A DNA stretch of 38,245 nucleotides from Methanosarcinaceae archaeon (GTDB lineage Archaea > Halobacteriota > Methanosarcinia > Methanosarcinales > Methanosarcinaceae): the NCBI GenBank assembly GCA_013329415.1, contig DUKH01000156.1:14984-53228 (forward strand), in the 5' to 3' direction. The notes under the pieces were generated by a model, which saw only the letters and a list, made by a program, of their open reading frames with translations, ran no database searches and was not told the origin of the DNA. This document shows positions 3,024 through 36,052 of the stretch, in pieces. How positions within the stretch are numbered: the stretch's first letter is position 1; the number at the start of each line of letters is the position of its first letter. Made by a program: the position numbers and the translations under genes.

Positions 3024-3926
3024 ATGAAGAAATTGGGTATTCTTGTGGCTGCAGTACTCATTGCAGCAATGTTATTTGCTTCCGGTTGTGCTGAAGAACC
3101 TCCGGAAGAAGGTGTTGAGGAAGGAGCTGAGGAGGAAGTTCCTGAAGAAGAAGTAGTGGTAGAAGAAGAGGAAGTAGTGGTAGAAGAAGAGGAAGTAGTA
3201 GAAGAGGAAGTCCCTGAAGAAGGGGGAGAAGAAATAGTTGTGGAAGAAGAAGTTGAAGAGGTAATCCCTGAAGAAGCGGTGGGAGTGGAAGGGGAATACA
3301 GCCCTGACATAAACCCCGAGGACTTCGTCGAAGGAGTTGACAATTCCTATTTCCCGCTGGTCCCGGGTACAACTTTCTTTTATGAAGGAGAAAGCGATGA
3401 AGGTGATCCCTTAAGAACCGAGATTTACGTCACCGATGAAACCAGAGTGGTAATGGGAGTAACCACCATCGTTGTCAGGGAATCGGAATATGAAGACGAC
3501 GAGCTGGAAGAAGAGACCTTTGACTGGTACGCCCAGGACATTGAAGGAAACGTCTGGTACTTCGGTGAGGACTCCAACGAATATGAGGACGGAGAAGTCG
3601 TAAGCACCGCCGGTTCCTGGGAAGCCGGAGTAGACGGGGCCTTCCCAGGGATAATAATGCCGGGAGACCCCCAGGTAGGGGATGCTTACTACCAGGAGTT
3701 CTACCCGGGAGAAGCCGAAGACCAGGCTGAAGTGGTCTCTTTGAATGAGTCGGTTACAGTTGCTTACGGCTCTTTCGAAGACTGCTTGAAGACAAGGGAA
3801 TGGAACCTGCTTGAACCTGGCCAGGAAGAAAACAAGTACTACGCCGCGGGCGTCGGTCTGCTCCTTGAAGAGGAAGTGAAAGGCGGAGATGAAAGACTGG
3901 AACTTGTGGAAATTACCACTGAGTAA
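3024..3926 (+). CDS. Lipoprotein with acidic stalk, uncharacterised domain
   Basis: 300 residues. A lipoprotein signal peptide ends at lipobox ASGC (Cys22). Residues 23-95 are a Glu/Val/Pro stalk of EEEVVVEEEE-type repeats. Residues 96-300 form a folded domain beginning with DINPEDFVEGVDNSYFPLVP, followed by PGTTFFYEGE, FDWYAQD..GNVWYFGE, GSWEAGVDG and GDPQVGDAYYQEF motifs. The domain is not one I can name; the PL.PGT..Y start and WYFGE motif suggest a beta-rich extracellular domain. A paralogue lacking the stalk lies inverted at 4874-5734. The ribosome binding site GGGGGAAAG precedes ATG. Expression is probably controlled through the palindrome at 2974. Confidence 0.8.
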   Translation: MKKLGILVAAVLIAAMLFASGCAEEPPEEGVEEGAEEEVPEEEVVVEEEEVVVEEEEVVEEEVPEEGGEEIVVEEEVEEVIPEEAVGVEGEYSPDINPEDFVEGVDNSYFPLVPGTTFFYEGESDEGDPLRTEIYVTDETRVVMGVTTIVVRESEYEDDELEEETFDWYAQDIEGNVWYFGEDSNEYEDGEVVSTAGSWEAGVDGAFPGIIMPGDPQVGDAYYQEFYPGEAEDQAEVVSLNESVTVAYGSFEDCLKTREWNLLEPGQEENKYYAAGVGLLLEEEVKGGDERLELVEITTE

Positions 3927-4119: not shown

Positions 4120-4653
4120 TCACTTTTTCCTTTTTCCAAACTTCCACATTTCAATGGAATTGTCAAGAAGACTATCGAGAAAGCTCTCTTTGTAGGCTAT
4201 AAGCAGCCTGGCAGTAAGGTCCGGATCTACAATTTTAAGATTACTTATTCGCCCTATTCTGTCTTTTTCAATGATTCCGGACTTTACCAGCTTATTGAGG
4301 TGCCATGAAACAGTAGAGGGAGCGAGCCCGACTGCGGTTGACAGTTCTTTATTGTTCGTACCGGGGTTCTATAGCAGGTTTATCAGGATATGCCTGCTGC
4401 CTTTTCTCCTTAAAAAATAGATTATTTCCCTCTCATGCTTTTCGGGGATCTTTTTGCTTACGAAATACCGAACGTATTCTTCATCTTTAAAACGCGAGAT
4501 CAGATTGTTCTTTTCGAGATAGTGAAGGTGGTACTGCAAGCTGCCCACGACCAGATCCAGCCGCCTTTCGAGTTCCCTTAAATGAATTCCCGGGGAATCT
4601 CTTATCAGTTCATAAAGCTCTTTTCTTGTTTCAAGTTCAAGTTCCATCTTCAC
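4120..4653 (-). CDS. Winged-helix regulator interrupted by in-frame UAG
   Basis: Read from ATG at 4653, the frame runs 94 codons to a UAG at 4371-4369 and then, without any shift, 83 more sense codons to TGA at 4122-4120. The first half holds a winged helix (IHLRELERRLDLVVGSLQYH). The second half begins NPGTNNKELSTAVGLAPSTV and continues SWHLNKL, a textbook MarR/ArsR-like helix-turn-helix, and ends with a basic GKRKK tail. Two winged helices in tandem is a common layout for Methanosarcina regulators, so the whole frame looks like one protein of 178 positions with UAG at position 95. UAG can be decoded as pyrrolysine in this genus. The alternative is a recent nonsense mutation; the lack of any other damage fits either. 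No clear ribosome binding site is seen. Confidence 0.75.
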
Positions 4654-4873: not shown

Positions 4874-5734
4874 TTATCCTCCCCCTTTACTCAGTGGTAA
4901 TTTCCACGAGTTCCAGTCTCTCATCCCCTCCTTCCACTTCTTCCTCAAGGAGCAGGCCGACACACCTGGAGCATAGTATTTGTTTTCCTCTTCGCCGGGT
5001 TCGAGCGTGGTAAATTCCCTCGTCTTCAGGCAGTTTTCAAAGGACCCGTAGCTGATATCGGCCGTTTCGCTCAGCGAGAGCACTTCGGCCTGGTCTTCAG
5101 CTTCGCCCGGTGCGAATTCCTGGTAGTAAATGTCTCCTACCTGGGGATCTCCCAGCATTATGATTCCGGGCTTTGCGCCGTTTACTCCGGCTTCCCAGGA
5201 ACCTTCGGTACTGACAGGCTCTCCGTCCTCATATTCGGTGGAGTTTTCCCCGAAGTACCAGACGTTTCCGGCTTCGTCCTGGGCGTACCAGTCAAAGGTC
5301 TCCTCAACCAGCTCCCCGTCTTCGTATTCAGTATCCTGGACAACTGTGGTGGTAACTCCCATTACCTCCCTGGTTTCGTTGGTAACAAAAACCTCATTCA
5401 GGATGGTCGTGCCTTCCTCCTCGCTTTCGCCTTCATAAATGAAAGTTGTTCCGGGGACAAGCGGGAAGTAAGGATTGTCAACTCCTTCGACGAAGTTCTC
5501 AGGATTTATTTCAGGATCATATTCTTCGGTTACGTTATCAGATCCTGTATCTATTGGCTAGGAATCCTATCCTCCGTCAGTTACATTTTCAGATCCTGTT
5601 TCCGTTACGTTTTCAAATCCTGTCTCTGTTACATTTTCAAATCCTGTTTCCGATCCCGGAGCAAGCGCAACCACCGACCCAATAAGGATAAGTATTACAC
5701 AAGTTGTCATACTTATTGTCAGTGCTTTTTTCAA
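4874..5734 (-). pseudogene. Secreted paralogue of the 3024 lipoprotein, with two UAGs and a frameshift
   Basis: The start is TTG at 5734 with GGAGGT six bases upstream. It encodes a signal peptide (MTTCVILILIGSVVALA) with no lipobox Cys, then 8-residue repeats ETGFENVT, ETGFENVT, ETGSENVT. Two UAG codons follow in frame (5569-5567 and 5560-5558), then DTGSDNVT and a domain closely similar to residues 96-300 of the 3024 protein (EYDPEINPENFVEGVDNPYF, VWYFGE, GSWEAGVNG). Near the end a duplicated GT (CACAC at 4961-4965 on the plus strand) shifts the frame, replacing LLLEEEV...LVEITTE with an unrelated tail that stops at 4874. The undamaged frame would stop at 4887. Two UAGs plus a frameshift favour a decaying gene, although pyrrolysine read-through could rescue the first lesion. 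Confidence 0.75.
5567..5695 (-). repeat. 24-bp coding repeats (ETGxENVT)
   Basis: About three tandem 24-base units on the minus strand encode ETG(F/S)ENVT; a fourth, DTGSDNVT, follows the UAG pair. Each unit carries an N-V-T sequon for N-glycosylation. The repeats form the linker between the signal peptide and the folded domain. Confidence 0.65.
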
Positions 5735-6499: not shown

Positions 6500-7351
6500 T
6501 TAAACCAGTCCCTTCGGCTGCTTCTCCCCCGGCACTACCGGCAGCTCCATCGTATTGATCAAAATCGGACTCTCAATATCCTTTGCCCTCTCGATTACAA
6601 GTTCCTTCCCCTTCTGTGTTAGAGCGAAAAGCGGAATTGCAACCGCCATCTGGACAAGCGGCTTTGCAAGCTCCCTGATATGCCTGGAAGCGCAGCTTAT
6701 TACGATATCCGAGTTTTCCAGAAGCTCCCTGGCTTCTTCCCGGCTGACCCCTGTTACATGGACTGCAATCACGATCAGGTCAAGCCCGAGTTCGGCTTCT
6801 ATTTCCCTGCATTTTCTGGCGGTTTTTGCGTCTGCTATAGTTACTGCGATCCTTTTGTAGCCGAGTTCAGCGGCTTTCCTGACCCCGCCTGCCGGGTTGA
6901 TAGCTGCACTTGAAGGGTCGAGCACGGTCCCGCCGTTTTCCTGAACCCCTTTGATGGTTCCTGGGATGGGTTCGGTTTCGATCAGGCCAGACATCCTGCC
7001 TCCGATTCCCTGAACAAGGGCAGGGTTACCGGAGATCACGGTCCCTGCGCCGTCGCAGGCGGTTACGGTTGTTTCAAGAAAACCGCAGCGGAGCCCGCTC
7101 ATCATTATTTCGGAGGCTCCGAAAGCCACATAGGTATCATTTTCCAGGAGCTGGCGTTTGTCGGTGAACATCCCGAAGTCGCTAATGCGGAACTCGATGT
7201 TTTTCCTGACTTCTTCGGCAGTAATCTTTCGGATTCCCCTCAGCTTGTCAAAGAGGGGGCACCATTCCACTTCCGGAGGCCCGACTTCCACGACCTTTCC
7301 GTCTTTTACGACGACCCTGGCTTTCCCCAGTAATTCCATTATATGAGGCAT
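6500..7351 (-). CDS. DUF2099 family protein (methanogenesis marker 8 type), copy 1
   Basis: 283 residues from ATG at 7351. I recognise the DUF2099 family by RVVVKDGKVVEVG, the CPLF.K.RGI segment, NIEFRI.DFGMFT, FGASEIMMSGL, the TACDGAGTVI and GGRMSGLIETEP stretches, and a late ALTQKGKELVIERAK. The family is restricted largely to methanogens and its reaction is unknown. Cys and Gly-rich motifs in the first half suggest cofactor or metal binding, which is inference. An upstream GTG at 7360 overlaps the AGGTG ribosome binding site, so the ATG at 7351, matching the start of the second copy (MPHIMELLGK), is preferred. A paralogue of about 70 percent identity by eye lies at 8685. The stop is TAA. 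Confidence 0.8.
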   Translation of the reverse strand: MPHIMELLGKARVVVKDGKVVEVGPPEVEWCPLFDKLRGIRKITAEEVRKNIEFRISDFGMFTDKRQLLENDTYVAFGASEIMMSGLRCGFLETTVTACDGAGTVISGNPALVQGIGGRMSGLIETEPIPGTIKGVQENGGTVLDPSSAAINPAGGVRKAAELGYKRIAVTIADAKTARKCREIEAELGLDLIVIAVHVTGVSREEARELLENSDIVISCASRHIRELAKPLVQMAVAIPLFALTQKGKELVIERAKDIESPILINTMELPVVPGEKQPKGLV

Positions 7352-7377
7352 AATAGACACACCTGTAGGTACTGAAT

Positions 7378-8684: not shown

Positions 8685-9533
8685 TTAAATCAAGTCCTTC
8701 GGCTGCTTATGCTCCGGCAGTACAGGCAGGGCCATGGTGTTGATCAGAAGTGGGCTTTTGATATCTTTTGCCCTTTCGATCACAAGTTCCTTTCCTTTCT
8801 GGGTCAGTGCAAAGAGTGGCACGGCGGTCCCGACCTGGGCCAGGGGCTTTACGAGGTCCCGGATGGGTTTTGAGGCGCAGCTGGTTACGATATCTGAATT
8901 ATCTACCAGAGTCAGGGCTCCTTCCCTGGTTAAACCTGTAACATGGACTCCAATTACTATCAAATCAAGCCCCAGTTCGGCTTCGAGTTCCCTGCATTTT
9001 TTGGCGGTTTCACCGAAAGCCGCGGTTACTGCGATCTTCTTGTAGCCGAGTTCTGAGGCTTTTTTCACTCCTGCAACCGGGTCCATTACGGCAGTCGAGG
9101 GGTCAAGCACGATTCCTCCACGTTCCTGGATACCGTTAATGATGCCATCGATTGGCTCGGTCTCAACAAGGCCTGACATCCTGCCGCCCATGCCCTGGAC
9201 AAGGGTGGGGTTGTTGGAAATGACGGTCCCTGCGCCTTCACAGGCTGTTACGGTTGTGTCAAGTAAACCTCTGCTCAGGCCTGTCATCATAACTTCGGAG
9301 GCTCCGAACCCTACAAAGTCCTCGAGTTCCAGCTTCCGCTTGTCGGTGAACATCCCGAAGTCCTTAATCCTGAACTCCATGTTCTTCTTAGCTTCCTCGC
9401 CGGTAATCTTCTGGATCCCGCGCATTTTGGCAAAAAGGGGGCACCAATCGACTTCAGGCTCTCCGACTTCCACGACTTTCCCGTCTTTTACGACGACTCT
9501 GGTTTTTCCAAGTAATTCCATTATGTGAGGCAT
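8685..9533 (-). CDS. DUF2099 family protein (methanogenesis marker 8 type), copy 2
   Basis: 282 residues, colinear with the copy at 6500-7351 from MPHIMELLGKTRVVVKDGK to the ending VLPEHKQPKDLI. Conserved blocks include DWCPLFAKMRGI, FGASEVMMTGL, TACEGAGTVI, GGRMSGLVETEP and LTQKGKELVIERAKD. Differences cluster in the middle (IINGIQERGGIVLD, KIAVTAAFGE) and in charged surface positions, which suggests both copies are under selection. The start ATG has AGGTG five bases upstream. Functions are unknown; the presence of two copies so close together suggests a local duplication, later split by the small genes between them. Confidence 0.8.
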   Translation of the reverse strand: MPHIMELLGKTRVVVKDGKVVEVGEPEVDWCPLFAKMRGIQKITGEEAKKNMEFRIKDFGMFTDKRKLELEDFVGFGASEVMMTGLSRGLLDTTVTACEGAGTVISNNPTLVQGMGGRMSGLVETEPIDGIINGIQERGGIVLDPSTAVMDPVAGVKKASELGYKKIAVTAAFGETAKKCRELEAELGLDLIVIGVHVTGLTREGALTLVDNSDIVTSCASKPIRDLVKPLAQVGTAVPLFALTQKGKELVIERAKDIKSPLLINTMALPVLPEHKQPKDLI

Positions 9534-35101: not shown

Positions 35102-35716
35102 GTGCATATTTGGGGAGGGTCTACCTTAGTTTCCACTCGTTTACCCGTTTCTCTGGTCTCAGGGGAAATTGAAAATCCGCAGAGACCCACCGAGGAAGAG
35201 AAAAAACTTTTTCTTGCGATTGCCGAGCGCCTGATAAGAGCCTCGGAAAAAGAGATGCTTCCTCATTCCATACACGATGTAGTTAAAAGTCTCTCAACGG
35301 AACCTTTCAGGAAAGAAATCAACTGCACTGTTTTTCAGGAAAGTCAGGTGGAAAAAGTCAGGGTCCGGATCAGGACCCTGTTGATCAGCTGGGATGAGAG
35401 CCAGTCAGGGAAATTGGAAGAGGGAAGCCTTGGGGCCTATTCGTGGAACGACTGTGAGATTGGGATAAAGAAAGGAATTAAAACGCTGAAATTTACAAAC
35501 TACCTCATGCTCAACCCCGAGGAACTGAGGGAAAAAGAAAGAGACTCTTTCGGGAAAATAGAAAACGAAGGTCTGCTCCACCATGAACTGCTGCACGGGC
35601 AGCTCCTGATTGATGCCATGCGGGAAAGCCTCTCCTGGCAGGAAAAAGTTTGCAGGCACGATTTTGATTTTACCCCTGTGGACCTTGAGCACAGGGTCAT
35701 CTATGACTTACAATAG
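35102..35716 (+). CDS. HExxH protein of unknown family, ends at UAG
   Basis: 204 residues from GTG at 35102, with no ribosome binding site upstream; GGGGAGGG at 35111-35118 lies inside the frame and could serve a later start not preceded by a standard codon. Near residue 160 the sequence NEGLLHHELLHGQLLIDAMR contains HELLH, the HExxH zinc-protease motif, and a later Asp/Glu-rich segment (TPVDLEHRVIYD) could supply the third ligand. No signal peptide is seen. The stop is UAG, and the same frame continues GAT TTC and then the ATG of the next gene. Reading UAG as pyrrolysine would give one fusion protein. I cannot assign a family beyond a possible metallopeptidase. Confidence 0.7.
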   Translation: MHIWGGSTLVSTRLPVSLVSGEIENPQRPTEEEKKLFLAIAERLIRASEKEMLPHSIHDVVKSLSTEPFRKEINCTVFQESQVEKVRVRIRTLLISWDESQSGKLEEGSLGAYSWNDCEIGIKKGIKTLKFTNYLMLNPEELREKERDSFGKIENEGLLHHELLHGQLLIDAMRESLSWQEKVCRHDFDFTPVDLEHRVIYDLQ

Positions 35717-35722
35717 GATTTC

Positions 35723-36052
35723 ATGAAAAAATCAATTGTTGAAAAGGGATACAGGCTTACGGTAAAAAGGATAAAACCGAGATTCGAAAACGTAAGTGAA
35801 TTCGAATTTGTTCTGGGAGATGTCTCGGAATTTATTGACAAAGGGGATATTACCCTGATGTACTACGTCCCCCCGGGCTGTGGTATAAGCAACATGGAGT
35901 TTGAGGTCCCCAGGGACGCCACGGGAAACATAAAGACCAGCGGCCCTATAAAAGTAAAAGGAAAAATCACCGATAAAACCAGGCAGGGAAAATGTTACTA
36001 CTGGTTCCTCCATTCAGGGGGACATAAAAAGAGCAGTCCTTCCGGGCTCTGA
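35723..36052 (+). CDS. Unknown protein, in frame with the HExxH gene
   Basis: 109 residues. It reads like a beta-rich domain (GYRLTVKRIKPRFENVSEFE, ITLMYYVPPGCGISNMEFEV, and IKVKGKITDKTRQGKCYYWF). Two Cys residues are present (PGCG and GKCYYW). ATG at 35723 is preceded by a weak AGGA four bases upstream. The gene lies in the same frame as the HExxH gene, separated by UAG GAT TTC, so it is either a separately translated, coupled partner or the C-terminal domain of a read-through product. I do not recognise the family. Confidence 0.65.
   Translation: MKKSIVEKGYRLTVKRIKPRFENVSEFEFVLGDVSEFIDKGDITLMYYVPPGCGISNMEFEVPRDATGNIKTSGPIKVKGKITDKTRQGKCYYWFLHSGGHKKSSPSGL

Follow-up and report, generated by a model that had tools for sequence, protein, structure and literature searches.

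A private in-frame UAG in a tandem winged-helix regulator gene of a Methanosarcinaceae archaeon, and two shared UAGs in the gene upstream

We analysed a 38,245-nucleotide stretch of DNA from a Methanosarcinaceae archaeon (contig DUKH01000156.1 of assembly GCA_013329415.1, positions 14,984 to 53,228; hereafter the window), in which a gene for a tandem winged-helix regulator (4120..4647, minus strand) contains a single in-frame TAG at 4369..4371. Our preferred explanation, to which we assign a probability of roughly 0.55, is that CAG changed to this TAG recently and near-neutrally, as described for Thg1, in an operon under weakened selection, and that the codon is read as pyrrolysine at least in part. 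The ancestral Gln codon 95 (CAG) of an operon regulator would have become TAG in the window genome alone, and release factor and pyrrolysyl-tRNA (Pyl-tRNA) would compete at the resulting UAG without a dedicated signal. Some ribosomes would insert pyrrolysine at a tolerant position at the end of a helix and produce the full-length regulator, while the remaining ribosomes would stop after 92 residues and leave a single winged helix plus an orphan helix.

Read from GTG 4653, the minus-strand frame meets TAG at codon 95 (4371-4369) and then runs through 82 sense codons to a TGA at 4122-4120; apart from this TAG, the whole frame has no stop and no shift. The preferred start is ATG 4647, directly 3' of the motif AGGGTGA, and GTG 4653 is an alternative start. 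The gene has 175 codons from the former and 177 from the latter, the TAG being codon 93 or 95, respectively; residue numbers below count from GTG 4653. Orthologues align across all 177 codons, with identities of 90% and 84% in the same genus and 57-66% in other genera, and thus the frame is not a product of chance. Pfam places HTH_HVO_0163_N at residues 8-67 (4453..4632, minus strand; 68.8 bits, cut-off 31) and HTH_24 at residues 87-129 (4267..4395, minus strand; 67.7 bits, cut-off 21.9), both above the curated cut-offs. The first-pass annotation, which was made from the letters and their open reading frames (ORFs), had described a regulator frame with one in-frame UAG and a second helix-turn-helix behind the first, and the orthologues and Pfam bear this out on both sides of the codon. 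Its count of 94 codons before the UAG also holds; the 83 codons that it gave after the UAG are 82 sense codons, or 83 only with the stop included. It had further placed the UAG just before the second DNA-binding domain. The HTH_24 match contains the codon, and in a structure model the regulator has one helix at residues 84-95 and the next at 101-108, so that residue 95 ends the first of these and the UAG is predicted to sit between helices one and two of the second winged helix. The model is of moderate quality (mean predicted local distance difference test score 67.6) and was built with five sequences, and a Foldseek search with it gave general MarR/ArsR winged-helix matches only.

The survey of orthologues points to a recent origin of the TAG. 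We sampled 101 genomes of the family and found full-length orthologues in other genera and, within the window's genus, in three genomes, the window's own among them. Three genomes of another genus, and both congeners in which the gene occurs, have CAG as codon 95, and elsewhere it is CAA, AAT, GAG, GAA or GGA; TAG is found in the window genome alone, every other full-length orthologue examined having a sense codon. Residue 95 is accordingly variable (Q, N, E or G). Compared with the congeners, two adjacent bases are substituted, which turns CTC CAG into CTA TAG. The first-pass annotation had proposed conservation of UAG as a check, and had held that sense codons in all orthologues, combined with the absence of any product past the UAG, would speak against pyrrolysine; the UAG is private, and the first half of that pattern is what we observed. 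A private UAG at a tolerant position, with sense codons in the relatives, is also the pattern of neutral UAG acquisition. The precedent is Thg1 of Methanosarcina acetivorans, which, according to PMC2933860, drawing on Heinemann et al. 2009, gained its UAG by neutral evolution, and in which pyrrolysine was physically observed and is not essential. The regulator resembles Thg1 in that a pyl system is present in the genome and in that the UAG lacks the conservation that is true of the methyltransferases. It differs in that pyrrolysine has been seen in Thg1 and is dispensable there, whereas in the regulator it is proposed, and the operon of the regulator is apparently decaying.

The window genome (G000, a 3.86 Mb draft in 226 contigs, 95% complete, with the window on contig C200) contains the complete pylTSBCD set that the first-pass annotation had named as a check: contig C57 encodes, one after another, tRNA-Pyl with a CUA anticodon, PylS, PylB, PylC and PylD. 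In-frame TAG also occurs once in each of two MttB and three MtbB genes of this genome. With pylTSBCD in the genome and homologous coding sequence on both sides of the UAG, the regulator has features expected of a pyrrolysine protein. TAG is also the terminator of 3-5% of the ORFs (24/798; 38/711), and one conserved gene end has TAG or TAA depending on the congener; for these reasons UAG seems to be ambiguous in this organism and not purely a sense codon, which is why we propose competition between Pyl-tRNA and release factor at the regulator UAG. Archaea that read all TAG codons as pyrrolysine were reportedly described in 2025; because TAG gene ends are found here, we argue that the window genome is not of that type. 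MtmB was not found in the draft, possibly owing to an assembly gap, and is present in two copies in each of the three congeners. One MttB match each at L187 and L188 (G001 and G002) contains a TGA besides the TAG, and this TGA may lie outside the gene.

Read-through of UAG appears most clearly in the adjacent gene upstream of the regulator, gene B (4887..5734, minus strand; start TTG 5734, homologous stop TAA 4889-4887), which encodes a secreted protein. Gene B has two in-frame TAGs, at 5567..5569 (residue 56) and 5558..5560 (residue 59), both on the minus strand and identical in three species (also at L149 and L036). They form the motif GG*DS*P, where asterisks mark TAG, in a repeat-rich stretch after a likely signal peptide. 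Three comparisons give omega values of 0.16, 0.22 and 0.24 past both TAGs, and the deficit of nonsynonymous changes is strong (Fisher p = 3e-8, G000-G001; 4e-7, G001-G002). Provided that common descent explains the shared TAGs, this purifying selection implies that the downstream frame was selected while they were present. The first in-frame start past the TAGs is ~60 codons further downstream; translation from it would give a product without the signal peptide. The simplest account is that both UAGs are probably read through, presumably as pyrrolysine, which makes gene B a better pyrrolysine candidate than the regulator. Homologues of gene B in other genera and its paralogue in the window, gene A (3024..3926, plus strand), which lies inverted on the far side of the regulator, are matched without TAG. 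Since read-through is probable in the gene next door, and given pylTSBCD and the TAG-bearing MttB and MtbB genes, that part of the first-pass annotation which proposed a full-length, pyrrolysine-bearing regulator remains plausible.

The locus itself looks degenerate. The operon occurs in several genera of the family, and several other genomes have the order gene B, a gene for a membrane protein of ~90 codons, regulator; the conserved membrane protein gene lies directly upstream of the regulator in other genera (L019, L026, L012, L010 and L020), and it was not found in any of the four genomes of the window's genus. The regulator was not found in G003, one of these four. Gene B of the window genome has a private 2-nucleotide insertion near 4965-4962 (minus strand) that shifts the reading frame close to the 3' end and alters its last residues, and two congeners are without it. 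To judge from this gene content, the operon appears to be shedding components, and this speaks for a low cost of a nonsense change in the regulator. The segment TACCATGTTAA upstream of the regulator was considered as an operator and rejected, as the corresponding bases in other genera are the 3' end of the membrane protein gene.

The same decay also fits a UAG that simply terminates translation. On this explanation, the main rival, the regulator is a recent pseudogene created by a plain nonsense mutation, and too little time has passed for the downstream frame to be disrupted. Several observations weigh on that side and against partial reading as pyrrolysine. Translation past the regulator UAG is something that we infer. 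C86S and F166S fall at sites that are invariant in all other aligned orthologues and would fit a pseudogene. The changes private to the window genome number 11 synonymous and 5 nonsynonymous in the N-terminal half, and the 2 synonymous and 2 nonsynonymous in the C-terminal half are too few to show selection behind the TAG. There is, moreover, no significant excess of TAG among the interrupted genes of the window genome. Against a pseudogene stand the TAG as the sole lesion in the regulator frame, and the several genes of this organism that decode UAG, which make complete termination unlikely. The G001 copy of the regulator, which is free of TAG, itself has three changes at invariant sites, so that the two found here are not telling. 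Pairwise omega against the 90% relative is 0.10 in the N-terminal half and 0.16 in the C-terminal half, but most of this divergence may predate the TAG, and hence these values say little about the time since it arose. On balance we regard a plain nonsense mutation as somewhat unlikely.

The frequency of interrupted genes comes from a uniform hexamer screen combined with domain checks and an orthologue check, which covered 1.43 Mb of the window genome and, in the one-contig genome G001, 0.8 Mb, with true interruptions and adjacent in-frame genes separated partly by eye; it replaced earlier codon-usage and BLAST screens in which antisense shadow frames and neighbouring genes in the same frame had drowned out the signal. 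In the window genome, interruptions by TAG number about nine, those by TGA five and those by TAA one to three. Codon usage leads one to expect 37-45% TAG among random nonsense changes, and because the TAG share matches this mutational expectation, as a nonsense origin would predict, a genome-wide TAG excess was rejected as proof of suppression. The window genome would appear to contain ordinary nonsense changes, or errors, involving each of the three stop codons, and the regulator TAG could be one of them. A further gene in the window, of 316 codons (35102-36052, plus strand), likewise has a private TAG at 35714-35716, where G001 has TCG, and its G003 orthologue is matched with one TAA inside. 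Elsewhere in the genome, genes with one TAG encode a histidine kinase (L049:13904-16834), a PAS protein (L065:17094-20000), an ABC ATPase with the TAG at LDEPF*GLDP (L061:5073-6122, minus strand), a cation efflux transporter (L128:13002-13994), a Fic protein (L139:11877-12758), an S-layer protein (L124:2636-5950, minus strand) and a TPR protein (L123:5792-9313). Loci interrupted by TGA or TAA are L059:10922-13786, L060:12170-12982, L114:6274-6798, L067:11853-14573 (minus strand) and L058; the genes with TGA encode a P-type ATPase, a phage sheath protein, a chorismate lyase, a fasciclin-like protein and a beta-lactamase-like protein, and one TAA is in L058.

These counts bear equally on the next rival, that the TAG is a sequencing or assembly error in the 226-contig draft. 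The incomplete state of the assembly favours it, as do the two adjacent substitutions at the site and the interruptions by all three stop types in the window genome, set against the 0.8 Mb of G001 that was read, where neither TAA nor TGA convincingly interrupts a gene. Frameshifts, however, which are a frequent assembly fault, are not in marked excess in the window genome, and substitution errors in consensus sequence are rare. An error of this kind therefore seems improbable to us.

Beyond read-through as such, the first-pass annotation had proposed an evolved switch, in which the activity of the regulator is coupled to the supply of pyrrolysine and so to growth on methylamines. The pyl genes, the possible one-domain short form and the TAGs of gene B upstream would all suit such a switch. 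The UAG is nevertheless private to one genome and lies at a variable site, the operon is degenerate, and no methylamine methyltransferase gene was found on the window's contig when these were looked for. No unusually stable RNA structure or PYLIS-like stem-loop was detected behind the regulator UAG (z = 0.30), although a PYLIS stem-loop behind the UAG is not needed for pyrrolysine insertion (PMC9499178). The proposed coupling thus found no support, and we consider a dedicated switch very improbable.

Its private UAG also sets the regulator apart from other UAG-containing systems. That a pyl-bearing methanogen can have an in-frame UAG in the gene of a transcriptional regulator is already known and hence not new: the TetR-family regulator MA2902 of M. 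acetivorans has one (PMC1914089, PMC3639795), in common with M. barkeri. MA2902 belongs to another regulator family, and its UAG is shared between species whereas that of the window regulator is private. The methyltransferases MtmB, MtbB and MttB likewise have an in-frame UAG in comparable genomes, but theirs is conserved and the pyrrolysine is catalytic, in contrast to the private UAG and variable residue described here. With its N-terminal HTH_HVO_0163_N domain (PF24266) followed by a second winged helix, the regulator has the defining layout of archaeal tandem winged-helix regulators, and differs from the orthologues read here, which are without an in-frame TAG.

Outside these systems, the window contains two nearby copies of a methanogenesis marker 8 protein gene (DUF2099; 6500-7360 and 8685-9533, both minus strand). 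In G001, a gene of 1,921 codons for a NosD-like protein (L153:8802-14564, plus strand) contains two diverged repeats with one TAG apiece (VNNGAG*GADFTSIQAAVDA), and an MtbB of this genome has the expected TAG. One could read gene B and the NosD-like protein as signs that pyrrolysine has spread in the genus beyond the methyltransferases into selected surface or secreted proteins, and that the regulator encoded with gene B has joined them, so that the secreted product and its regulator would both need a supply of pyrrolysine; in this full form we find the idea quite unlikely.

For now the regulator counts as a further recent UAG, whether tolerated or not, in an organism where UAG seems ambiguous, and citing it as a pyrrolysine switch would be unwarranted. 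Gene B, if confirmed, would be a secreted protein other than a methyltransferase that has kept two pyrrolysines through speciation, and, if this is true, the extent of pyrrolysine use outside methylamine metabolism would become directly testable with a defined peptide.
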